The position numbers were made by a program, and so were the translations under genes. From Bacillota bacterium (lineage in GTDB: Bacteria; Bacillota; Clostridia; Clostridiales; Clostridiaceae), in the NCBI GenBank assembly GCA_021781655.1, contig JAJXWJ010000015.1:1-54475 (forward strand): a stretch of 54,475 nucleotides of DNA, read 5' to 3'. Below are positions 2,230 to 51,383 of the stretch, one piece after another. Under the pieces are notes generated by a model. It did no database searches, had not been told where the DNA came from, and worked only from the letters and a program-made list of their open reading frames with translations. Position 1 is the first letter of the stretch. The number at the start of each line of letters is the position of its first letter.

Positions 2230-3711
2230 ATGACAGACAAAATTATAAAGGATAGTGATACTTTAGTTTTAGATTTTATAGCTAACATTTCCAAATTAGA
2301 ACAAGAGCTCAAAAATTGTCCGGATATAATACGAAGAAAGGTCACTTTAAAGATTGGAAAGGAAGGCTATTTTTTTTATATTCAAGGGTTAGCTGATACA
2401 AATTTAATACAAAGAGACTTCATTAGTAATGTGTTAAATCTTGAAAGCTTAGATTTTACTATGCCTAAGTACTTGCAAGACAAAATACCTGTAGCAGGTA
2501 TAAGTTTTCCAGTTTATATAAAAGATATTGTTTCGGAAATATTAAATGGGAAAACTATATTTATTGGAAATGATATTAACTATGCAATTGCCTGTGACTT
2601 AAAAAAATATAATAAAAGAGATATAACAGAACCGCAAACAGAAAAGGTGGTAAGAGGAGGTCATGATGGTTTTATTGAAGATATTGTTACAAACATAGCT
2701 ATTTTAAGAACAAAAATCAAAAATTCAAATCTTAAATTTATAGAGTTTACAGTAGGTAAGGTTACAAATCAAAAACTTGTAGTGGCATACTTAGATAATA
2801 TAGCAAATAAAAACATTCTTAAAATATTATGCAATAAAATAAGTAAGTTAAACTTTGATGGTTTTATAGGTTCTGGATATATAGAACATATAATTACGGA
2901 TCATCCAATGTCACCATTTCCTCAGTATTTAGCTACAGAAAGAGCAGATAAAGCTACAGCGGCTTTACTAGAAGGAAAATTCGTAATTATTTTAGATGGA
3001 ACGCCTGTTACCATAATAGCTCCAGTAAATATATTTTCTTTTTTTCAAGCTACGGACGATTATACCACAAGTTGGATATCTGGAAGTATAGTAAGGTTTG
3101 GCAGAATCTTTGCTTGCTTTATAGCTTTGTTTCTTCCTGGTATATATATTGCTTTATTAACCTTTCATTATTACATGATTCCCTTAACTTTATTAGTTCC
3201 TTTAGCAGAATCCAGAGCGAGAGTTCCTTTTACCCCTATAGTTGAAGGTTTAATTATGGAATTTGTAATAGAACTAATTAGAGAATCGGCAATAAGGCTA
3301 CCTACATATATAGGAGCATCCATAGGTGTTGTTGGGGGTATAATAATAGGTCAGGCAGCAGTTCAAGCTGGAATCGTTAGTAATCTAATGGTAATAATAG
3401 TATCTGTAACAGCTATTGCTGCCTTTGCTATACCAAATTACGATATGTCATTAACTGTAAGAATTATTAGATTTGCAATAATGATCTTTGCAGCAATCTT
3501 TGGTATAGTCGGAATTATTGTGCCAATAGCATTTTTAATTTATCATGTAATTATTTTAGAATCTTTAGGAGAACCATATTTACAACCAATAGCACCATTA
3601 AAATTTAGAGATTTTAAGGATACTTTTTTTATTATGCCTATAAGGTTTTTAAAGAAAAGACCAGATATTGCAAAGCCTACAGATAATACAAGGGGAAAGA
3701 GTAATGAATAA
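2230..3711 (+). CDS. Spore germinant receptor subunit A (GerA/GerKA family)
   Basis: This is the A subunit of a GerA-type nutrient germinant receptor in the inner spore membrane. Its 493 residues are typical of the family. There is a soluble N-terminal region up to about residue 290, including the family block LDGTPVTIIAPVNIFSFFQATDDYTT, then several hydrophobic segments from about 290 to 460, including the PLAESRARVPFTPIVEGLIMEF block conserved in GerAA proteins. The start follows GGTGAT. It overlaps the B-subunit gene by eight bases, which suggests translational coupling. Expression is presumably under forespore sigma-G, but I could not place a convincing sigma-G promoter. Confidence 0.95.
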   Translation: MTDKIIKDSDTLVLDFIANISKLEQELKNCPDIIRRKVTLKIGKEGYFFYIQGLADTNLIQRDFISNVLNLESLDFTMPKYLQDKIPVAGISFPVYIKDIVSEILNGKTIFIGNDINYAIACDLKKYNKRDITEPQTEKVVRGGHDGFIEDIVTNIAILRTKIKNSNLKFIEFTVGKVTNQKLVVAYLDNIANKNILKILCNKISKLNFDGFIGSGYIEHIITDHPMSPFPQYLATERADKATAALLEGKFVIILDGTPVTIIAPVNIFSFFQATDDYTTSWISGSIVRFGRIFACFIALFLPGIYIALLTFHYYMIPLTLLVPLAESRARVPFTPIVEGLIMEFVIELIRESAIRLPTYIGASIGVVGGIIIGQAAVQAGIVSNLMVIIVSVTAIAAFAIPNYDMSLTVRIIRFAIMIFAAIFGIVGIIVPIAFLIYHVIILESLGEPYLQPIAPLKFRDFKDTFFIMPIRFLKKRPDIAKPTDNTRGKSNE

Positions 3712-4801
3712 TAGAAAAAATCAAATTACCTCTAAGCAGTTAATGAGTTTTGTTATAGCTACACAACTTGGTACAGGTATGCTTTGGTATCCTAACAGTT
3801 TAGCTATGAAGGTAGGACATGATGGTTGGATTTCGGTAATTATTTTTGGTAGCATCATAACTTTTTTTATTGTATTCATGATATTGCTATTAAAAAGATA
3901 TGAAAACCAAAATATATTTTCAATTAATAAAAACATATATGGGAAGGTTATTGGATTTTTTATTAATAACGGGATTATAGTATATTTATTTATATTAACT
4001 TGCATAAGTTTAAGGATATTTATAAATATAGTGAAATTAATAGCATTGCCACTTACTCCAGGTATTATAGTTACAATATTTACCTTTTTACCATCTTTGT
4101 ACTTAGTGAGCTATGGACTAAAATTTATAGCAAGAGATACTATATTTGCATATTATGCTATTTTATTTTGTTTAATAATATTTTTTTTAGAAAGTAAAGA
4201 TTTTCACTTTACTTTTTTACAGCCCATTGGTAAGTGTGGTGTTAATAAAATAATATCAACTACACCAGAAAGCTTGCATGCTTTTTTGGGGTATGAACTC
4301 ATCGCTATAATATATCCAGAAATAACAAATAAAAATAAAGTTATGATATATTCCATTTGTGCAAATTTTGTAACTACAATAATGTACATAATAATAACTA
4401 TTGTGTCAACAATAGTTCTAGGTGAAAATTTTCTAAAAAGTACATTATACCCTATTATAAACCTTTCAAGGTACTATGAAGCACCTATTTTTCAAAGAAT
4501 AGATTTGTTTTTTCTTGCAACTTGGTTTTTTATTATGGCTATGGATTCTAGGGCCTATTTCTTTGCAGCATACTATAGCATAAATAAGGTTTATGATTTA
4601 AAAATGAGTAAAATATTTCTTTTTTGTTTTTGGGTAGTTGTAATAGCTGCAACAAGATTTCCTAATAGCGATTTTAAAATGCATTATTGTGAAAGTATAA
4701 TGGAAGTATTAGGGGCTATAGTAACGATTAATATGTTACTTTGTTATATTTTATCCTTCATTAGAAAGAAAGGAATAAGAACAAATGATAAAGTATTTTA
4801 A
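3704..4801 (+). CDS. Spore germinant receptor subunit B (GerB/GerKB family permease)
   Basis: This is the integral-membrane B subunit of the germinant receptor, related to APC-superfamily transporters. About ten hydrophobic segments span a chain of some 365 residues. The conserved N-terminus TSKQLMSFVIATQLGTGML marks the family. The start chosen is the ATG at 3704, preceded by GGGGAAAGAG; an upstream in-frame start at 3668 would lie deep inside the A-subunit gene and lacks a ribosome site. It overlaps both neighbours, so the three ger genes are tightly coupled. Confidence 0.93.
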   Translation: MNNRKNQITSKQLMSFVIATQLGTGMLWYPNSLAMKVGHDGWISVIIFGSIITFFIVFMILLLKRYENQNIFSINKNIYGKVIGFFINNGIIVYLFILTCISLRIFINIVKLIALPLTPGIIVTIFTFLPSLYLVSYGLKFIARDTIFAYYAILFCLIIFFLESKDFHFTFLQPIGKCGVNKIISTTPESLHAFLGYELIAIIYPEITNKNKVMIYSICANFVTTIMYIIITIVSTIVLGENFLKSTLYPIINLSRYYEAPIFQRIDLFFLATWFFIMAMDSRAYFFAAYYSINKVYDLKMSKIFLFCFWVVVIAATRFPNSDFKMHYCESIMEVLGAIVTINMLLCYILSFIRKKGIRTNDKVF

Positions 4802-37490: not shown

Positions 37491-37566
37491 GGGCGCATAG
37501 CTCAGCTGGGAGAGCATCTGCCTTACAAGCAGAGGGTCACAGGTTCGAGCCCTGTTGTGCCCACCA
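37491..37566 (+). tRNA. tRNA-Val (anticodon TAC)
   Basis: This is a 76-nt cloverleaf: acceptor GGGCGCA with TGTGCCC, anticodon stem CTGCC/AGCAG around TTACAA, T-arm GGTTCGAGCC, and an encoded CCA end. Confidence 0.97.
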
Positions 37567-37575
37567 TAGAAATTA

Positions 37576-37652
37576 GGCCTGGTGGCTCAGATGGTTAGAG
37601 TGCTGGCCTGTCACGCCAGAGGTCGAGGGTTCGATCCCCTTCCAGGTCGCCA
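37576..37652 (+). tRNA. tRNA-Asp (anticodon GTC)
   Basis: 77 nt with acceptor GGCCTGG and CCAGGTC (one G-U), anticodon loop CTGTCAC, T-arm GGGTTCGATCCCC, and encoded CCA. Confidence 0.97.
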
Positions 37653-37688
37653 ATTTTATATATTTTAATTTATTTTTATAGTTATTAA

Positions 37689-37764
<76 letters not shown>

Positions 37765-37771
37765 TATATTT

Positions 37772-37846
37772 GCGGGAGTGGCTCAGTGGTAGAGCGTCAC
37801 CTTGCCAAGGTGAACGTCGCGAGTTCGAATCTCGTCTTCCGCTCCA
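37772..37846 (+). tRNA. tRNA-Gly (anticodon GCC)
   Basis: 75 nt with acceptor GCGGGAG and CTTCCGC, anticodon loop TTGCCAA, T-arm GAGTTCGAATCTC, and a CCA end. Confidence 0.97.
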
Positions 37847-37849
37847 AAT

Positions 37850-37923
37850 GGCGCTATGGCCAAGTGGTAAGGCATAGGTCTGCAAAACCTTGATCCCCAG
37901 TTCAAATCTGGGTGGCGCCTCCA
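37850..37923 (+). tRNA. tRNA-Cys (anticodon GCA)
   Basis: 74 nt with acceptor GGCGCTA and TGGCGCC, anticodon loop CTGCAAA, T-arm CAGTTCAAATCTG, and a CCA end. It starts only three bases after tRNA-Gly. Confidence 0.97.
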
Positions 37924-38594: not shown

Positions 38595-38864
38595 ATATTA
38601 CGCACTAACTCTTAAGCTTAAATAGATAAAAAGTGAAACGCATTATATATTAATTGACATTTGACAATGGACAATTGACAATGATGGTGGATTTTCCTAC
38701 GCTTAGCTACAGAAAATCTTTAAACAATTGTAATTGCCTAAAAATAATAATTTGTAGTTTTTCTGACTGAAAGGAAGAAAAATGTCCTTCATTGTCCATT
38801 GTCAATTAAATCTCACTGCGGTTTTCTTTATAACGATTTTTAAAAGTAACTTAGTGCGTAATAT
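38595..38864. mobile_element. MITE-like element, 270 bp, nested terminal inverted repeats
   Basis: The outer inverted repeat is perfect over 14 bases: ATATTACGCACTAA at 38595-38608 and its complement at 38851-38864. Imperfect pairing continues inward. A second inner repeat has TTGACAATGGACAATTGACA-type units at about 38652-38682, complementary to TCATTGTCCATTGTCAA at about 38799-38816. A further small hairpin, GATTTTC/GAAAATC, sits in the core near 38690-38718. TA bases flank the TTACGC ends, consistent with a TA target duplication. No transposase is encoded, so it would be a non-autonomous element. Confidence 0.65.
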
Positions 38865-38993: not shown

Positions 38994-39536
38994 ATGTCAG
39001 AAAATAAATGGCTGGTTATTGTATATAATTTACCTTCGGAACCTTCTAAATTAAGAGTTAGGGCTTGGAGAAATTTAAAAAAACTTGGAGCTATAAATAT
39101 TAGTCAATCAATGTGGATATTGCCATACAATGAAAAGAATCATTCAACTTTGCTAACTTTATCTGAGGAGTTAGAAAATGATAATGGAGAAACTTTCATT
39201 ATGAAGACAGCTTTTATGGAGGATAAATACGAAAAGAGAATCATTTCATATTTTAATGCTGCAAGGAAAATTGAGTATGAAGAAATAATCGACAAATGTG
39301 AAGATTATTTTAATGAAATAGAAAAAGAAACGGAAAGAAAAAACTTTACTTTTGCTGAAGCAGAAGAGAATGAAGAAGAGCTAGAAAAGCTTTTAGCTTG
39401 GTTTCTGAAAATAAAAAATAGGGACATATATAATTCTGAACTAAGAAAGCCTACTGAAGAGGCACTTGAAAAATGTAAACATGTTTTTGAAGAATTTAGT
39501 ACAAGGGTTTATGAGATTGAAAGTACAAATACATAA
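38994..39536 (+). CDS. ChrB N-terminal-domain protein
   Basis: This 180-residue protein matches the ChrB N-terminal family, with KWLVIVYNLPSEPSKLRVRAWRNLKKLGAINISQSMWILP. ChrB senses chromate and regulates the ChrA efflux pump, but many standalone members have no such link. The C-terminal half is helical and charged. No chrA is near. The start at 38994 follows GGGAG; an upstream GTG is in frame but would contain that site. It is bounded by the MITE upstream and a terminator downstream. Confidence 0.8.
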   Translation: MSENKWLVIVYNLPSEPSKLRVRAWRNLKKLGAINISQSMWILPYNEKNHSTLLTLSEELENDNGETFIMKTAFMEDKYEKRIISYFNAARKIEYEEIIDKCEDYFNEIEKETERKNFTFAEAEENEEELEKLLAWFLKIKNRDIYNSELRKPTEEALEKCKHVFEEFSTRVYEIESTNT

Positions 39537-39542
39537 TATTAA

Positions 39543-39594
39543 ACTAAAATGCCATTTAGAATACTATATTCATTCTAAATGGCACTTTTAGTTT
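39543..39594 (+). terminator. Terminator after the ChrB-like gene
   Basis: A long stem centred on TGCCATTTAGAAT (39550-39562) with ATTCTAAATGGCA (39572-39584) extends outward through ACTAAAA/TTTTAGT, giving about 20 bp with one imperfection, and ends in TTTT. Confidence 0.85.
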
Positions 39595-39639: not shown

Positions 39640-39682
39640 TGTAACGTAAGTTACAATATTATATAATGTAACTGATGTTACA
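39640..39682 (+). promoter_or_regulatory. Paired palindromic operators over the metal-transport promoter
   Basis: Two copies of TGTAAC-N4-GTTACA lie 27 bases apart: spacer GTAA at 39640-39655 and spacer TGAT at 39667-39682. The second extends to AATGTAAC/GTTACATT. A -10-like TATAAT (39662-39667) lies between them, touching the second copy, which fits a repressor that covers both -35 and start. The regulator is unknown; it does not look like Fur, MntR or Rex boxes. Confidence 0.7.
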
Positions 39683-39795
39683 TTTAGTTTTTAAGATTTT
39701 ATGCAATGCGCGCAAAATTGACAAATTTTAATTAACAGGACCCTTTAAAAATCTTTTTACTTGTGTAATGAAAAATTATTTTAAGGAGAGATACT

Positions 39796-40848
39796 ATGAG
39801 TTCCAAAAAATTAAAATCTGTAATTGTTTTAGCTGTAATTTCCACTCTAGTTTTTTCGCTGTCAGGCTGTGCAAGCAGTAGTGCTTCAAGTTCTACACAA
39901 TCTAATAAACAATTAGTATTATATTCTGCTCAAGGATATGACAGTGCTGTAGCAAAAGCATTTGAGAAGAAAACAGGAATTAAAGTTAAATTGGTTGATG
40001 ACTCTACTGGTTCCATAGCAGCAAAAATGGAAGCGGAGCGCTCTAATCCACACTGGGATGTTGCATGGTTTGATGGAGATGCAACAATGCAATCTATGGA
40101 TAATCAACAAATGCTTTTAACTGGTTATTCACCATCAGACATTGGTAACTACACTGAGCTAGGAAATTCACTTTTACCAAAAGATAAAGGATATTTTCCG
40201 GTAAGTGTTACAGCAGCAGCTGCAATTGGAGTAAACACTAAACTAGTTTCACCTGCAGATTATCCTACAGATTGGAATGATCTAAAAAAACCTTTCTTTA
40301 AAAACAGTATTGCAATGAATGATCCAAGTACATCAGGACCTACATATCCATATGTAAGCGGTATGCTAAGTACCTTAGGCGATGCAAATGGTAAGCAGTT
40401 TTATGAGGATTTAAAATCAAATGGATTAAAAGTGTTTCCAACTAATGACAATACACTTCAGGCATTAATTTCAGGACAAGTTAAAGCTATAACTATTCAA
40501 AATTCTGCACTTATAAATTCAGAAGTCAGTGGAAATCCTATTAAAATTATATATCCATCCTCAGGTGTATTTACACTTCCAGGTGTCATGGCTATCGATA
40601 AAAATGCTCCAGACATGGATGCAGCAAAACAGTTTGTAGAATATTGCTTATCACCTGAAGGACAGGCTGTAATGTTAAATCCTAAAAATGGTGGAGGAGA
40701 TTCATATTTTAATCCTATTATAAAAGGCGTTAATCCGAATAAAGAAGTACAAGTTGAAAATGTTAAATGGATAAAAACTAATCCAATATCTGCAGCAAAA
40801 AATGAAGATAGTATAAAGAAGTGGTTCCATGATAACATATATCAATAA
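39796..40848 (+). CDS. Iron(III)-type ABC transporter binding lipoprotein (FbpA/AfuA-like)
   Basis: This 350-residue extracellular lipoprotein has a signal peptide ending in the lipobox LSGCAS and a Ser-rich linker. The mature part has the FbpA-family layout: QLVLYSAQGYDSAVAKAFEKKTGIKVKLVDDSTGSIAAKMEAE and later GVFTLPGVMAIDKNAPDMDAAKQFVEYCLSPEGQ. The family binds ferric iron, sometimes other compounds such as phosphonates or thiamin, so the ligand is not certain. The start follows AAGGAGAGA. Its end overlaps the permease gene by 20 bases. Paired palindromes sit at the promoter. Confidence 0.88.
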   Translation: MSSKKLKSVIVLAVISTLVFSLSGCASSSASSSTQSNKQLVLYSAQGYDSAVAKAFEKKTGIKVKLVDDSTGSIAAKMEAERSNPHWDVAWFDGDATMQSMDNQQMLLTGYSPSDIGNYTELGNSLLPKDKGYFPVSVTAAAAIGVNTKLVSPADYPTDWNDLKKPFFKNSIAMNDPSTSGPTYPYVSGMLSTLGDANGKQFYEDLKSNGLKVFPTNDNTLQALISGQVKAITIQNSALINSEVSGNPIKIIYPSSGVFTLPGVMAIDKNAPDMDAAKQFVEYCLSPEGQAVMLNPKNGGGDSYFNPIIKGVNPNKEVQVENVKWIKTNPISAAKNEDSIKKWFHDNIYQ

Positions 40849-42634
40849 AATTAAGAATGGATTATTTGAAAGATTGGATTCCTTGTTAGGGGTTTGTGCA
40901 ATGCTGATTCTTGTAGTTTATGCACTATTTGCTTTATTGATTCAGTCTATATTTCCCCACATATTTGATAAGAATTCCAGTTTAGTACCGTCAATAAATG
41001 GATTAGTTAATGTTTTTTCCGATAAGATGAATTTTTTAGCTGTATATAATTCTTTTACTATAGGTATCATGGCAACAATTATTGCTGTTGTTTTAGGTAT
41101 TTTTGCTGCAGTAGCTGTTAAAAATATGGGCAGAAGGCTTTCAAAAGTAACAAATGCACTAATTTGGATTACTTTTTTTATGCCATCTTATGTGATAACA
41201 CAAGGTTGGATAATATCTTTGCAGGATGGCGGTATTATTTCACAAATATTTAAACTTCAAAGTGGATGGTCAAAGATATTTTTCACAAGATATGGTGTGG
41301 CCATCATAATGGGACTTAGGTTTTTCACATATGTTTACTTTGGTTTGCAGCAAGCTTTAATGAATATTGGTGATGAACTTATAAAAGCAGGAAAAATTGC
41401 TGGGGCATCAAAATTTAAAAGATTTTTCAAAATCACCCTTCCGCTTTTGACACCTGCTATATTAGCAGGGGCTTCCATAGCTTTTGCTGAGGGCTTTGGT
41501 GATTTTGGAATAGCCGCTGCTATAACGCCAAATTCTCATATTCCACTTTTAACTTATCAAATATATTCATCATTAAATCAAGACCCAGTAGATTATTCAA
41601 ATGCTGCTTGCTTGTCTGTGATTGAAATAATGGTAACAACAATAGCTATACTTTTGCAGTTTGCTATAATGCGTAAAAAATCGTATATTACGAATCCGGT
41701 TGTTAAAAGTAAGGATAAAGCTTCAGAAAACAATAAAAATCATCCGGTATTAATAACAGGTATAGTTATATTGCTTTTATTTTCCTTAGCGCTTCCTTTA
41801 GTATCTAATGTGATAGCTTCCTTTTGGAAAGTATGGGCTAATGGTATTAGTTCAACAAATTGGACTTTAGCAAATTATAATAAGGTTATGTCCTTAAATA
41901 GTGATGGCTATAATTCAATAATAAGATCTATTTTTTATTCGATTTTAGTTACGATTATTGCTTTACCTTTTGCTCTTACAGTAGCATATCAGTTAGTGTT
42001 TAAAAAGACTAAAGTCAGCAAGTTTATTAATGTATTAAATATGTCTACCATTGCTATACCGGGTGTAGTAATGGCTGCAGGGTTTGTATTTGCTTGGAAT
42101 GCAGTTTGGTTAATACCTCTCAATTTAGTTTTATATGGTACTCCAATATGTCTAGGAATGGCATATCTTGCTGGTGCATTGCCATATTCAATAAGATTAC
42201 AAACTGGTGCACTGAGTACTTTGCCTACTAATCTTATAAAATCAGCAAAAATTTTTGGAGCCAATAATTCTCAAATAATATTTAGAATAATAGTTCCTCT
42301 TGTAAGTACAACCACTATATCAACCTTTTTTATGTCTTTTTCAGGCATTATGTTTGAACTTCCTGCAGCATCTTTATTGTATCCAGCTGGGCAACCACCT
42401 TTTTCTGTTGTAATACAATCTGAATTTAATAATTCCAATTGGTCAAAGGGCTCAGCTCTAACAATAGTAGGAATATTGATAGTGTTTGTAGTGTTTATTA
42501 TTACTAAGCTTTTAATTTGGCTGATTAATGGAAAGGGTATTAATAAAGTTGTTAAAGTAAATGAAATAGAAATCAAAGAAACAAAAACAATTATTAAACC
42601 CCAGCCTGGTATTTCCAGTATAGAGCAAAACTAA
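40829..42634 (+). CDS. Fused iron(III)-type ABC permease (FbpB-like)
   Basis: This 601-residue protein has twelve or so membrane segments in two homologous halves. Each half has an ATPase-docking EAA loop: GDELIKAGKIAGASKFKRFFKITLP near residue 190 and TNLIKSAKIFGANNSQIIFRIIVP near 470. This tandem fusion is typical of FbpB/SfuB. It would form the channel for the neighbouring lipoprotein and ATPase. The start at 40829 has only a weak ribosome site and overlaps the lipoprotein stop, so coupled translation is likely. Confidence 0.9.
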   Translation: MITYINKIKNGLFERLDSLLGVCAMLILVVYALFALLIQSIFPHIFDKNSSLVPSINGLVNVFSDKMNFLAVYNSFTIGIMATIIAVVLGIFAAVAVKNMGRRLSKVTNALIWITFFMPSYVITQGWIISLQDGGIISQIFKLQSGWSKIFFTRYGVAIIMGLRFFTYVYFGLQQALMNIGDELIKAGKIAGASKFKRFFKITLPLLTPAILAGASIAFAEGFGDFGIAAAITPNSHIPLLTYQIYSSLNQDPVDYSNAACLSVIEIMVTTIAILLQFAIMRKKSYITNPVVKSKDKASENNKNHPVLITGIVILLLFSLALPLVSNVIASFWKVWANGISSTNWTLANYNKVMSLNSDGYNSIIRSIFYSILVTIIALPFALTVAYQLVFKKTKVSKFINVLNMSTIAIPGVVMAAGFVFAWNAVWLIPLNLVLYGTPICLGMAYLAGALPYSIRLQTGALSTLPTNLIKSAKIFGANNSQIIFRIIVPLVSTTTISTFFMSFSGIMFELPAASLLYPAGQPPFSVVIQSEFNNSNWSKGSALTIVGILIVFVVFIITKLLIWLINGKGINKVVKVNEIEIKETKTIIKPQPGISSIEQN

Positions 42635-42660
42635 ACTTCCATATAAGCAATTTTTTAATA

Positions 42661-42693
42661 GGGACTGTGCAAAATTTGATTTTGTACAGCCCC
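42661..42693 (+). repeat. Intercistronic hairpin between permease and ATPase
   Basis: GGGACTGTGCAAAAT (42661-42675) pairs with ATTTTGTACAGCCCC (42679-42693), one mismatch and one G-U, around TTG. No T-run follows. It may partly terminate, process the mRNA, or be a small repeated element. Confidence 0.6.
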
Positions 42694-42722
42694 TCTGTAA
42701 AAAAATGATAGAGGTGATTTTT

Positions 42723-43802
42723 ATTTTTATTAAAGTTGATAAAGTTACTAAATATTATGGTTCAAGGCTTATTTTAGACGGTATATCATTAGAAGTTGAA
42801 AAAGGAGAGTTTTTAACTTTGCTAGGCTCTTCAGGATGTGGAAAGACGACTCTCCTTAATTCGATAGCTGGTTTAACAAATATCGATAGCGGCGAAATAA
42901 GTGTAAATGAATCGGTTTGGTCTAAGAAAAAGTATACTATGCCAACAGAGCATAGAAATATAGGTATGGTATTTCAAGATTTTGCACTATGGCCTCATTT
43001 AACAGTGTTTGACAATATTGCCTTTGCTTTAAAGCTTAAAAAAGATAAGAAGTATACAAAAGAAAAAATATCACAAAGGATAGAGGAAGTTTTAGATGTT
43101 GTACAGATGAATGGATATCAAAGGTATTATCCTCATCAACTTTCAGGAGGTCAAAAGCAGAGAATAGCTGTTGCTAGAGCCTTGGCACCAAATCCATTTT
43201 TTTTATTGATGGATGAGCCTCTTTCTAGTCTTGATGCTAAAATGAGGGAAAGAATGAGGTGGGAACTTTTAGAAATTGTTAAAGGCGCGCAAATAACTAC
43301 AATTTATGTAACTCATGATCAAATTGAAGCTTTAAGTATGTCAGATAATATTATTTTATTAAATGGAGGGAAAATTGAACAGGAAGGAACGCCTGTGCAA
43401 TTGTTCAAAAATCCTAAAACAGAATTTGCTGCTAATTTTTTAGGTGCTTCCAATCTAATTCAAGGAAAACTACTTGATATTAAAGAGGAAAAAATGCTTA
43501 TAGATTGTAATGGATTTAATATTATTACAAAGCCAATAGACGATGTGAAGGAATTTCTTGATATAAGAATTCATCCTTCTGATATACTAATAAATTCAGA
43601 ATATGAGGGAGAAAGCACTAAGCTTACTGGTATCATTAAACAAAGAGCATTCCAAGGAAGTTCTTGGCAATACAAAATAAAGTTAGTAGCTACTGAAAAT
43701 ATATATCTTGAGGTTTTCAGTAGAATAGAAAAACCTATAGATAGTGAAGTTGATCTATGTTTGCCAGCATCAAGCTGTCATGTTGTTTCAAGAATAGCTT
43801 AA
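42723..43802 (+). CDS. Iron(III)-type ABC transporter ATP-binding protein (FbpC-like)
   Basis: This ATPase of about 359 residues has Walker A GSSGCGKTT, FQDFALWPHLTV, signature SGGQKQR, Walker B LLMDEPLSSLDAKM and THDQIEALSMSDNI. A C-terminal TOBE-type regulatory domain spans from about 235. The start is unusual: the first in-frame ATG (42705) lacks a ribosome site and lies before GAGGTG (42711-42716). The ATT at 42723, six bases after it, would give MFIKVDKVTKYYGS, the expected family N-terminus. An AUU start is therefore likely, though a sequence error in the leader is possible. Confidence 0.85.
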   Translation: MFIKVDKVTKYYGSRLILDGISLEVEKGEFLTLLGSSGCGKTTLLNSIAGLTNIDSGEISVNESVWSKKKYTMPTEHRNIGMVFQDFALWPHLTVFDNIAFALKLKKDKKYTKEKISQRIEEVLDVVQMNGYQRYYPHQLSGGQKQRIAVARALAPNPFFLLMDEPLSSLDAKMRERMRWELLEIVKGAQITTIYVTHDQIEALSMSDNIILLNGGKIEQEGTPVQLFKNPKTEFAANFLGASNLIQGKLLDIKEEKMLIDCNGFNIITKPIDDVKEFLDIRIHPSDILINSEYEGESTKLTGIIKQRAFQGSSWQYKIKLVATENIYLEVFSRIEKPIDSEVDLCLPASSCHVVSRIA

Positions 43803-43828
43803 ATTTATATTTCAAAAGGAGGACTATT

Positions 43829-44605
43829 ATGATTTGGTCATCAGTATTACCATCATTTTTTGCTTCAATGGTTGAATTTGTTGAAGCACTTACTATTGTA
43901 CTTGTTGTGGGAGTAACTATTAATTGGAAGAGTAGCCTTTTAGGTGCAGGTGCTGCAATGGCAGTATTAAGTATATTAGTTGCACTATTAGGTTCAACCT
44001 TAGTAGTTTTTGTACCTATTGAGGTATTAAGATTAGTTGTAGGAATAATACTTATACTTTTCGGACTTCAATGGCTAAAAAAAGCGGTGCTAAGGTTCAG
44101 CGGTTTTAAAGATTTACACGATGAGGCAGCTATATATCAAAAGAAGATGAACGATATGAAAAGGGTAGGAAAGTCTAGCTCCCAAAAATTTAACGGCTTT
44201 GGTTTTGCTACATCCTTTAAGAGCGTACTATTAGAAGGTTTAGAGGTAGCATTTATAGTTATTACCTTTGGTACAACATCAAATGTAGATAAAGTTAATG
44301 GAATTTGGACAGCTGCCCTTGGAGCTGCTTTAGCTTTTGTCATAGTTGTAGCTCTTGGCTTTGCTTTACGTGCCCCATTGACTAAGATACCAGAAAATAC
44401 GCTTAAATATATTGTTGGAATTATGCTCGTTTCCTTTGGAACCTTTTGGGGCGGTGAAGGACTTGGGATTGTGTGGTTCTTATCAGACTTTTCTATTTTA
44501 GTTCTTATTGCCTTTTTCTTGTTATTTAGCGGAATAATTATAAATTGGCTTAAAACATATAAGTTAGAAGCTAATAATTTAAGAGAAAATTTGGAGGCAA
44601 AATAA
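43829..44605 (+). CDS. COG4280-type membrane protein with two ExxE motifs
   Basis: This 258-residue protein has about seven hydrophobic segments and closely resembles what I recall as the uncharacterised COG4280 family. It contains two internal repeats, each with an acidic motif in a membrane segment: Glu16-x-x-Glu19 (VEFVEAL) and Glu136-x-x-Glu139 (LLEGLEV). The latter resembles the REGLE motif of FTR1 iron permeases. Between them is a charged cytosolic loop about residues 90-125. Placement directly after an iron-type ABC operon suggests metal transport, but no function is established. The start follows AAGGAGGAC. Confidence 0.75.
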   Translation: MIWSSVLPSFFASMVEFVEALTIVLVVGVTINWKSSLLGAGAAMAVLSILVALLGSTLVVFVPIEVLRLVVGIILILFGLQWLKKAVLRFSGFKDLHDEAAIYQKKMNDMKRVGKSSSQKFNGFGFATSFKSVLLEGLEVAFIVITFGTTSNVDKVNGIWTAALGAALAFVIVVALGFALRAPLTKIPENTLKYIVGIMLVSFGTFWGGEGLGIVWFLSDFSILVLIAFFLLFSGIIINWLKTYKLEANNLRENLEAK

Positions 44606-44606
44606 T

Positions 44607-44822
44607 ATGGGGGCTATAGTTAAATTTTTTAATAAAGTATTTGATTTTTTCTGCGGAGACTGGATTGTTTTCTTTGGAATGTGCATTACTATATTAGTAA
44701 TTGAAATTATTAATAAGACTTTTTCCTTAGAAAGTTTAGGTGCTATAAGCGGAGTTTTATTTGTTTTAGGAATAGCAATAAGCTTTATAATAGCTATTAA
44801 GAGAGAAGTAAGTAAGCAGTAA
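44607..44822 (+). CDS. Small two-helix membrane protein
   Basis: This 71-residue protein has two predicted spans, about 17-38 (GDWIVFFGMCITILVIEII) and 43-64 (LGAISGVLFVLGIAISFIIAI), with a basic C-terminus. It begins one base after the COG4280 stop and has its own GGAGG, so it is co-expressed with that permease, perhaps as an accessory subunit. I do not recognise the family. A strong terminator ends the operon. Confidence 0.7.
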   Translation: MGAIVKFFNKVFDFFCGDWIVFFGMCITILVIEIINKTFSLESLGAISGVLFVLGIAISFIIAIKREVSKQ

Positions 44823-44878
44823 AAATAACCTGTAAGAAATGCAACCTTAAAAGGCAGCATCTTACAGGTTATTTTTTA
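44823..44878. terminator. Terminator ending the metal-transport operon
   Basis: An outer stem (AATAACCTGTAAGA with TCTTACAGGTTATT) encloses an inner hairpin CCTT/AAGG, followed by TTTTTT. The stop codon of the convergent DUF6873 gene overlaps its right end. Confidence 0.88.
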
Positions 44879-46659: not shown

Positions 46660-46911
46660 AAATATGACTATATAAATGACTATGAAGAGGAAGAGTAAGT
46701 TGAAAAACTGTTCTAAGAGAGAGAAGCTATTAGCTGAGAGGCTTCTTGAATAAGTGTCACTGAAAACCACCTTGGAGTTGAAGACTGAATTTAGTAAGTT
46801 TATTCCGCTAGCTGGCGTTAGAGTATCGAGTGAATAAAACATTTTTTTGTTTTGTTAATTTGGGTGGAATCGCGAAATTACTCGTCCCATTATTGGGACG
46901 GGTTTTATTTA
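46660..46911 (+). ncRNA. T-box riboswitch (threonine) before thrS
   Basis: The leader has a stem I region from about 46683 (GAAGAGGAAGAG, AGAGAGAAG), and the specifier triplet ACC (Thr) at 46766-46768 just before the conserved TGGAG. The T-box motif TGGGTGGAATCGCG is at 46861-46874. The terminator stem CGTCCCA/TGGGACG (46883-46900) is followed by GGTTTT. Uncharged tRNA-Thr should stabilise antitermination. A slightly variant T-box (GGAATCGCG rather than GGTACCGCG) is noted. Confidence 0.92.
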
Positions 46912-51128: not shown

Positions 51129-51164
51129 AATTATTTTGTTTTAACGTTATAATAAATAATATGC

Positions 51165-51383
51165 ATTGAAGGAGAGAGTAGGCATTATAAATGCTTTAAG
51201 GGAGAAAAGATCTTGGACTGAAAGTCTTTTTAAGCTGGTATTGCTGAAGGTTCGCTCTGGAGCTCTGATGGTGAAGTTATTTGTAGCCACCGGCGGTTAA
51301 AACCGTTATATTTATAAGTGGGCAGTAATGTCAAATTGGGTGGTACCGCGGATAATCCGTCCCTTTGTGGGAGGGTTTTTTTG
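51165..51383 (+). ncRNA. T-box riboswitch (phenylalanine) before pheS
   Basis: The leader has stem I sequence GGAGAGAGTAGGC and the specifier TTC (Phe) at 51251-51253 before TGGAG. The T-box motif TGGGTGGTACCGCGG is at 51337-51351. The terminator CCGTCCC/GGGAGGG (51357-51375) is followed by seven T. The tRNA-Phe it senses is encoded at 37689 in this window. Confidence 0.96.

Follow-up and report, generated by a model that had tools for sequence, protein, structure and literature searches.

A stand-alone ChrB N-domain protein and tandem palindromes at a clostridial locus that may combine an importer of organic anions with a two-part metal permease

Introduction

ChrB of Ochrobactrum tritici binds its promoter, mutants of its R18 and R23 are reported to be constitutive, and its response to chromate depends on R180, R187 and H229 (PMC3817168). 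Here we describe a locus in which a protein with only the N-terminal domain of ChrB (ChrB_N) is encoded upstream of five co-directional genes. The locus lies in a stretch of 54,475 nucleotides (the window) from a Bacillota bacterium of the Clostridiaceae (GenBank assembly GCA_021781655.1, contig JAJXWJ010000015.1, positions 1 to 54,475). The five genes encode a lipoprotein solute-binding protein (SBP), the fused permease and the ATPase of an ATP-binding cassette (ABC) importer, a COG4280-type membrane protein and a 71-aa membrane protein. A first-pass annotation had described them as a ferric iron importer with a partner metal channel; it missed the upstream regulator (38994-39536) and its probable operators, which are the most informative part of the locus. 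We propose instead, at about even chances on the sequence evidence, that ChrB_N controls an operon in which an importer of organic anions is combined with a two-part metal permease.

The operon genes also have described relatives. In SBPs of the FbpA/HitA type, two adjacent tyrosines are iron ligands. AfuA was earlier predicted to bind iron and was then shown to bind sugar phosphates, and its authors raised the concern that the annotation of further predicted iron transporters may be wrong (PMC4546632). P5PA is a binder of pyridoxal phosphate (PLP) (PMC8427247). Among iron permeases, FTR1 is described with the motif R-E-G-L-E (PMC8065604), and FTR1/EfeU systems are described with an oxidase or an EfeO/EfeB/P19 partner gene (PMC9174327). 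Set against these systems, the vague 'iron operon' resolves into testable parts, beginning with a regulator whose 16-bp candidate operator is found in four phyla.

Results and discussion

The stand-alone ChrB_N protein and its candidate operator

The regulator gene (38994..39536, + strand; ATG 38994 is taken as the start, the longest open reading frame (ORF) beginning at GTG 38979) encodes a 180-aa protein that matches PF20229 with 141 bits against a cut-off of 23 (E 4e-41) and PaaX_M with an E-value of 1e-6. Its AlphaFold2 model (pLDDT 92.8) consists of a Cas2-like domain and a three-helix bundle. The best fold match in the PDB was PaaX (8a39, E 6e-4), the sole match at E 0.001 or better, followed by many Cas2 proteins; a PDB sequence search returned matches at E 0.049 or worse only. 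PaaX has an N-terminal winged helix, whereas the predicted ChrB_N structure, which shares the Cas2-like domain with it, begins at that domain. R21 and R26 are invariant in 15 of 15 ChrB_N homologues and correspond to R18 and R23 of O. tritici ChrB, as mapped through the two-domain proteins of L126 and L134 (loci are numbered L, genomes G), which have Arg at 18 and 23, and not through the O. tritici sequence itself. The C-terminal, chromate-sensing half is absent, the window protein being 180 aa long compared with 309-330 aa in seven two-domain ChrB proteins. Chromate is therefore unlikely to act here as it does in classical ChrB, since the residues needed for the chromate response lie in the absent half. 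The likeness to the ChrB of chromate operons consists of the N-terminal DNA-binding domain, both key arginines and a 16-bp palindrome near the gene start; the differences are the missing sensing half, another operator and other neighbouring genes. In the open PMC literature we found nothing linking ChrB with TMEM165 and nothing joining any three of ChrB, DNA-binding, PaaX and Cas2-like.

Between the ChrB_N and SBP genes lie two exact TGTAAC-N4-GTTACA palindromes, 27 bp apart: probable operator 1, TGTAACGTAAGTTACA (39640..39655), and probable operator 2, TGTAACTGATGTTACA (39667..39682). Across the genome the exact palindrome occurs here and in one other place, again as a pair 27 bp apart, and the reversed-pattern control gave 0 matches. 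When all 6-mer half-sites with a gap of 4 were scanned in the 200 nt upstream of 33 chrB-like genes, TGTAAC came first (11/33) and TGTTAC second (5/33), compared with at most 3 in 200 shuffles that kept base composition only. With up to 2 mismatches, the palindrome was found within 200 nt 5' of 14 of 31 stand-alone chrB genes, classed as such from match coverage and annotation rather than by a one-by-one check for fused domains. Seven of these 14 palindromes lie exactly 30 nt from the estimated start, and the records come from Bacillota, Alphaproteobacteria, Actinomycetota and Chloroflexota. It was found upstream of none of seven two-domain, chromate-type chrB genes. The Cupriavidus two-domain chrB gene (L123, ~2923-2938) has an exact TGTAGA-N4-TCTACA, TGTAGAGATCTCTACA, at -54, and the O. 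tritici paper depicts a repeat that is arranged differently from this Cupriavidus palindrome (PMC3817168). Because the palindrome accompanies stand-alone chrB genes and none was found at two-domain chrB genes, the stand-alone ChrB_N protein is the likely reader of the palindrome, an assignment that we consider very probable from sequence conservation.

Several observations weigh against this assignment. The window's own chrB_N gene has no operator upstream of it (best match 3 mismatches), and 17 of the 31 stand-alone chrB genes have none within 200 nt at 2 mismatches, the copy on the mcr-5 plasmid (L121) included. In eight of these 17 cases it is instead the SBP or COG4280 gene of the locus that has the operator in front of it, and the chrB gene of L119 has an exact palindrome further out, at -262. 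Acididesulfobacillus acetoxydans (L028) has the operon, no palindrome in the locus at 2 mismatches, and only a partial ChrB_N match elsewhere. Upstream of COG4280 genes, the half-site scan found TGTAAC at 5/91, equal to the shuffle maximum of 5; the whole palindrome with up to 2 mismatches was found there at 10/91 loci, compared with 0-2 in 50 shuffles that kept base composition. In addition, mutating the inverted repeat of a promoter is reported not to have abolished its binding by O. tritici ChrB (PMC3817168).

Conservation suggests that a ChrB_N dimer would bind both operators in the SBP promoter region and repress, and that a signal would release this repression. A TATAAT hexamer read from the sequence (39662-39667) overlaps the gap between the palindromes and abuts operator 2. 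Since the promoter scan did not list this hexamer and no good -35 element was seen, repression by occlusion is something we infer. A system responding to chromate or a related oxyanion would fit the ChrB N-terminal family domain of the regulator, and we regard it as highly improbable. The half holding the O. tritici chromate-response residues R180, R187 and H229 (PMC3817168) is missing, the operator class is absent from all seven two-domain genes, and no chromate transporter was seen among the adjacent ORFs. Classical chromate sensing was rejected on the absent C-terminal half together with the different operator.

Upstream of chrB_N, positions 38650-38809 hold an inverted repeat with ends like TTGACAATGGACAATTGACAATGA, by eye possibly a small mobile element. 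On the 3' side of the gene is a terminator-like hairpin (39546..39588, -22.9 kcal/mol by folding), which the terminator scan lists on the - strand.

Genes preceded by the palindrome and genes next to chrB

In the window genome, the other exact palindrome pair precedes an orphan SBP paralogue (L117), 75% identical to the window SBP. In L117 (G000:C99:1-14000), positions 2620-3796 show a near-identical promoter region with tandem palindromes, and no permease or ATPase gene stands beside the SBP gene. A distant ABC set of the same genome (L146, 4645-8267; SBP 32-34%, ATPase 40%, permease 24%) is without the palindrome. G166, a genome from the same family, has the palindrome in front of chrB_N (with 1 mismatch), SBP, COG4280 (L104) and a second ABC operon (L144). 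The latter (8062-12192 of L144) has one exact palindrome and no COG4280 gene beside it, and its ABC genes are the closer relatives of those in the window. Palindromes stand both before SBP and before COG4280 in L025, L104 and L105.

At 12 plasmid loci, the gene after the stand-alone chrB is an MFS gene in six (L122, L124, L125, L127, L128 and L129, the L127 call being made from the ORF sequence only), with a small DUF1127 gene in between in L125 and L129, and COG4280 in three (L021, L022, L120). The single cases are mcr-5 (L121), a transglycosylase (L118) and an unmatched 442-aa protein (L119). In L121 (4001-6205), on a Salmonella resistance plasmid, the stand-alone ChrB_N gene immediately precedes mcr-5, a mobile colistin-resistance gene, and the palindrome match upstream of it is poor (4 mismatches). 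Given this position next to a resistance gene, it would be useful to know what induces a regulator of this kind.

PAP2 phosphatase genes occur close to COG4280 on two alphaproteobacterial plasmids (L019, 7021-8714; L022, 6598-8747) and ~1.6 kb upstream of chrB_N in Priestia (L118). A link of these neighbours to the envelope is possible.

The importer is very likely not of the Fbp type

The SBP gene (39796..40848, + strand) encodes a lipoprotein with the lipobox LSGC that matches SBP_bac families of Pfam. It is followed by genes for a fused permease with two BPD_transp_1 stretches (40829..42634, +) and an ATPase with ABC_tran and TOBE_2 domains (42705..43802, +). The first-pass annotation had taken this unit for an FbpABC-type Fe(III) importer. 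As a whole-locus explanation, with a ferrous-iron channel as its partner, this is very unlikely. In its favour, many PDB relatives of the SBP bear ferric-binding names, the nearest (8x1a) being named by its depositors as an iron-compound binder, and the COG4280 protein matches the OFeT_1 iron permease family. The FbpA Tyr-Tyr pair, however, is missing at its place in all seven SBP homologues, with Ser-Ala there in six and Thr-Gly in one; in the family profile Q-D-S-A stands opposite the HitA NNYY, and only the L035 protein has a Tyr-Tyr, two residues beyond the HitA pair (the HitA and AfuA correspondences were read by hand from printed HMMER alignments). The ATPase scored 258.7 bits with the ferric model PRK11432, far below its cut-off of 496, and no iron model reached its cut-off among the NCBIfam matches listed (best 25 of 196 for the ATPase, 25 of 29 for the permease). 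Fbp-type Fe(III) import was rejected on the missing ligand pair. The ABC unit shares the SBP superfamily and an Fbp-like permease with FbpABC importers, and we are confident that it is not of the Fbp type.

When a profile of the seven homologues was searched against the PDB, the three best solved relatives were 8x1a, the AfuA structures and P5PA, ahead of well-known ferric binders. Two of these three, AfuA and P5PA, bind phospho-compounds, namely sugar phosphates and PLP. The best NCBIfam models were the putative 2-aminoethylphosphonate set PhnS2/PhnU2/PhnT2, all below cut-off (112.3 of 392.75, 105.1 of 593.25 and 323 of 457.7 bits). The nearest described systems are thus the AfuABC, P5PA and PhnSTUV-2 importers (SBP_bac_6/8), which resemble this one as its best PDB and NCBIfam relatives and in the Fbp-like permease and ATPase, and from which it differs in that the listed NCBIfam models all stay below cut-off and the AfuA sugar residues are replaced. 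AfuA binds the sugar through H205, D206 and E229 (PMC4546632). In the window SBP these correspond to Ser, Ala and Leu (mapped by hand on the HMMER alignment with an assumed numbering offset of 2), and the phosphate contacts Ser37 and T150 correspond to Thr and Pro (also mapped by hand). AfuA-kind sugar-phosphate import was rejected on the missing sugar determinants. Given the nearest relatives, the loss of Tyr-Tyr and the changed AfuA residues, the SBP ligand is probably an anion that would be neither a hexose phosphate nor Fe(III). An organophosphate-like substrate is a tentative suggestion from sequence kinship: the relatives on which it rests are distant, the nearest of them carries an iron name, and neither the sugar residues of AfuA nor its phosphate contact T150 are kept. 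The lipoprotein, fused permease and ATPase would then take up a small organic anion rather than Fe(III), most likely one resembling a phosphate ester or a phosphonate. A ferric annotation of the importer should await a test, and the case illustrates the concern about misannotation voiced by the AfuA authors (PMC4546632).

COG4280 and its small partner

The COG4280 gene (43829..44605, + strand; the longest ORF starts at 43757, and ATG 43829, preceded by AGGAGG, was chosen) had been described as encoding a seven-span protein with two intramembrane ExxE motifs. Its AlphaFold2 model (pLDDT 81.7) bears this out, with seven long helices arranged 3+3+1, E16/E19 in the first long helix and E136/E139 in the fourth. 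Across 32 sequences, E16, E136 and E139 never vary and E19 is almost invariant. PF16955 (OFeT_1) matches the window protein with 45.8 bits (gathering cut-off 26.9). At E 0.01 it matches all 32 homologues, compared with 22/32 for PF01169 (GDT1) and 4/32 for FTR1 (PF03239). The window protein also passes the GDT1 gathering score, with 29 bits vs 27, its best stretch covering residues 32-79 alone. GDT1 proteins have the family motif ExGD(K/R), and GDT1-type antiporters export metal; the COG4280 motifs are VEFVEA and LEGLEV, which do not conform to the GDT1 motif. The Arg of REGLE is also absent: ExxE is kept twice, preceded by V15 and L135.

No PDB entry matched the model at E 0.001 or better in a fold search, and a PDB sequence search with the COG4280 profile gave nothing at E up to 1. 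In a second fold comparison one match exceeded Z 8 (SLC33A1, 9.8) and the rest had middling Z to unrelated transporters, so fold speaks neither for nor against FTR1 or GDT1. Ferroxidase, EfeO/EfeB and P19 families were not found among the 25 commonest Pfam families, out of a set with 115 more, of 121 neighbouring ORFs; these were drawn from 148 listed, leaving out the identified ABC and ChrB_N genes and some long or near-duplicate rows. The only recurrent partners in this tally were MFS (5/121) and ArsR-type HTH (4/121).

What does recur is a small two-span ORF right after COG4280, at 78 of 90 loci compared with 0 of 77 in a control 2.5 kb downstream. We scored an ORF of 48-110 aa with at least two hydrophobic spans by a simple hydropathy rule and a start -20 to +160 nt from the COG4280 stop, at the 90 of 93 loci with enough DNA. 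At least two of the 12 misses have a homologue of the small protein (L027 by tblastn, L056 by clustering). In the window this partner is the 71-aa, two-span protein (44607..44822, +), which has no Pfam match above cut-off and a GD motif before span 1; the first motif position is G or D in 78/79 proteins and the second D in 62/79, the window included. It is very likely that the COG4280 protein and the small two-span protein form a conserved pair, and for this two-protein membrane unit the open PMC literature yielded no paper under the COG4280 name.

The pair resembles the OFeT/FTR1/EfeU (iron-lead transporter) family in PF16955, in the seven helices and in ExxE in long helices 1 and 4, and differs from it in the lost REGLE Arg, in its constant small partner and in that no oxidase, EfeO or EfeB partner was seen among the 25 commonest neighbour families. 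From sequence, COG4280 is probably a metal transporter; with the 71-aa partner it would form a two-subunit transporter of this family that passes a metal ion via the two ExxE helices. The earlier idea of a metal channel keeps its relation to metal permeases (PF16955). A ferrous-iron role is not supported, as ferroxidase, EfeO/EfeB and P19 families are missing from the 25 commonest neighbour families.

A metal-defence system, in which COG4280 and its partner export a toxic metal, the ABC unit imports a metal-binding or protective organic anion and ChrB_N senses metal or envelope stress, is a somewhat unlikely alternative. The GDT1 matches in 22 of the 32 homologues would suit such an exporter, and they are weak: the best, at 1.4e-06, covers a portion of the protein, and the window protein matches OFeT_1 more strongly. 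Resistance genes lie near COG4280 at three of seven plasmid loci viewed, L020 (RND efflux, dmeF), L022 (heavy-metal P-type ATPase) and L120 (CDF, P-type ATPase), whereas the other four have no clear metal-resistance genes. Host names from acid or mine sites (Desulfosporosinus acididurans, A. acetoxydans, Sulfobacillus acidophilus AMDSBA3) also fit metal defence.

Linkage of the importer, the membrane pair and the regulator

The first-pass annotation had named beforehand, as a check on whether the genes belong together, a search for their co-occurrence in other genomes. The order SBP-permease-ATPase-COG4280-small protein recurs in G166, D. acididurans, G379 and A. acetoxydans, and Dictyobacter kobayashii has a divergent arrangement; co-occurrence is hence not limited to this genome. 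Among 621 distinct genomes by handle count (225 of the window's order and 398 of its phylum), strong COG4280 matches (E below 1e-50) were found in nine and a close SBP (at least 49% identity) in five, all of them among the nine. Random draws would give this overlap about once in 6 billion, by hand arithmetic that ignores kinship. In G592 SBP and COG4280 are on different contigs. Strong COG4280 is present in only 2 of the 225 genomes of the order, which is consistent with lateral transfer.

The linkage counts below are lower bounds (contigs being short), leave out L017, L107 and L108 (taken as duplicates of L111, L025 and L024) and were made after ATPase matches under 33% or 38% identity (two listings) had been dropped. 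The 80 genome-contig loci are those most similar to the window COG4280 among at least 555 confirmed, and the frequencies describe that sample. A full ABC unit is linked to COG4280 in 6/94 loci from two phyla (the window, L025, L028, L035, L104 and L105), and ChrB_N in 21/94, the window included. In the trees, the window COG4280 groups with that of L104 (97/96), and the window SBP with those of L117 and L144 (100/98), the L104 SBP standing outside a six-member group (90/92); in the SBP tree, only two of the eight inner branches have strong support. Although their COG4280 proteins pair, the ABC unit beside COG4280 in G166 is thus a different paralogue from that in the window. The presence of two ABC paralogues in one and the same position ahead of COG4280 speaks for a functional link.

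Four observations speak against the proposed joint operon. The ABC linkage is a minority among the 94 loci; a distant SBP (34%) occurs in G290 without COG4280; no ChrB_N match was found in 8 of 18 COG4280 genomes searched; and some matches in the other 10 are partial or in longer frames. In another explanation, the substrates of the ABC unit and of the COG4280 pair are unrelated, and the two have no more in common than their regulator and, in some few lineages, joint transcription. This would suit the 88 of 94 loci with COG4280 and no full ABC unit nearby (some on short contigs), the ABC or SBP genes of the same family away from COG4280 in L144, L145 and L117, and the own operator of COG4280 in L025, L104 and L105. 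Such passengers are unlikely, since the close SBP was never without COG4280 in the same genome (5/5; 621 genomes) and two different ABC paralogues stand at the same place before it.

Beyond the joint operon, we tentatively advance three wider proposals, to be taken together. Stand-alone ChrB_N proteins would make up a widespread and overlooked class of transcription factors with a Cas2/PaaX-like fold, apparently lacking a winged helix, and with the operator TGTWAC-N4-GTWACA. This class would control an envelope/metal stimulon that comprises the COG4280-small protein pair, MFS proteins, a peptidoglycan transglycosylase, perhaps mcr-5 and, here, the organic-anion importer. COG4280 and its small partner would be a two-subunit metal transporter without a described member.

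Hairpins and other features of the window

The five genes described in the first-pass annotation (lipoprotein, fused permease, ATPase, ExxE protein and 71-residue protein) are all present in the ORF list on the + strand and close at a single strong hairpin (44821..44876, +, -26.1 kcal/mol, with a T-rich 3' arm), a terminator absent from the output of the terminator consensus scan. The hairpin noted earlier at the permease/ATPase junction is real and strong (42661..42693, +); it has no T run 3' of it and is a single copy in the genome. By eye, none comparable was seen at this junction in five related operons that were folded. Elsewhere in the window, a cluster of five tRNA genes lies at 37491-37920 and two T-box leaders lie at 46673-46892 and 51157-51367, the first upstream of an ORF that we take to resemble threonyl-tRNA synthetase.

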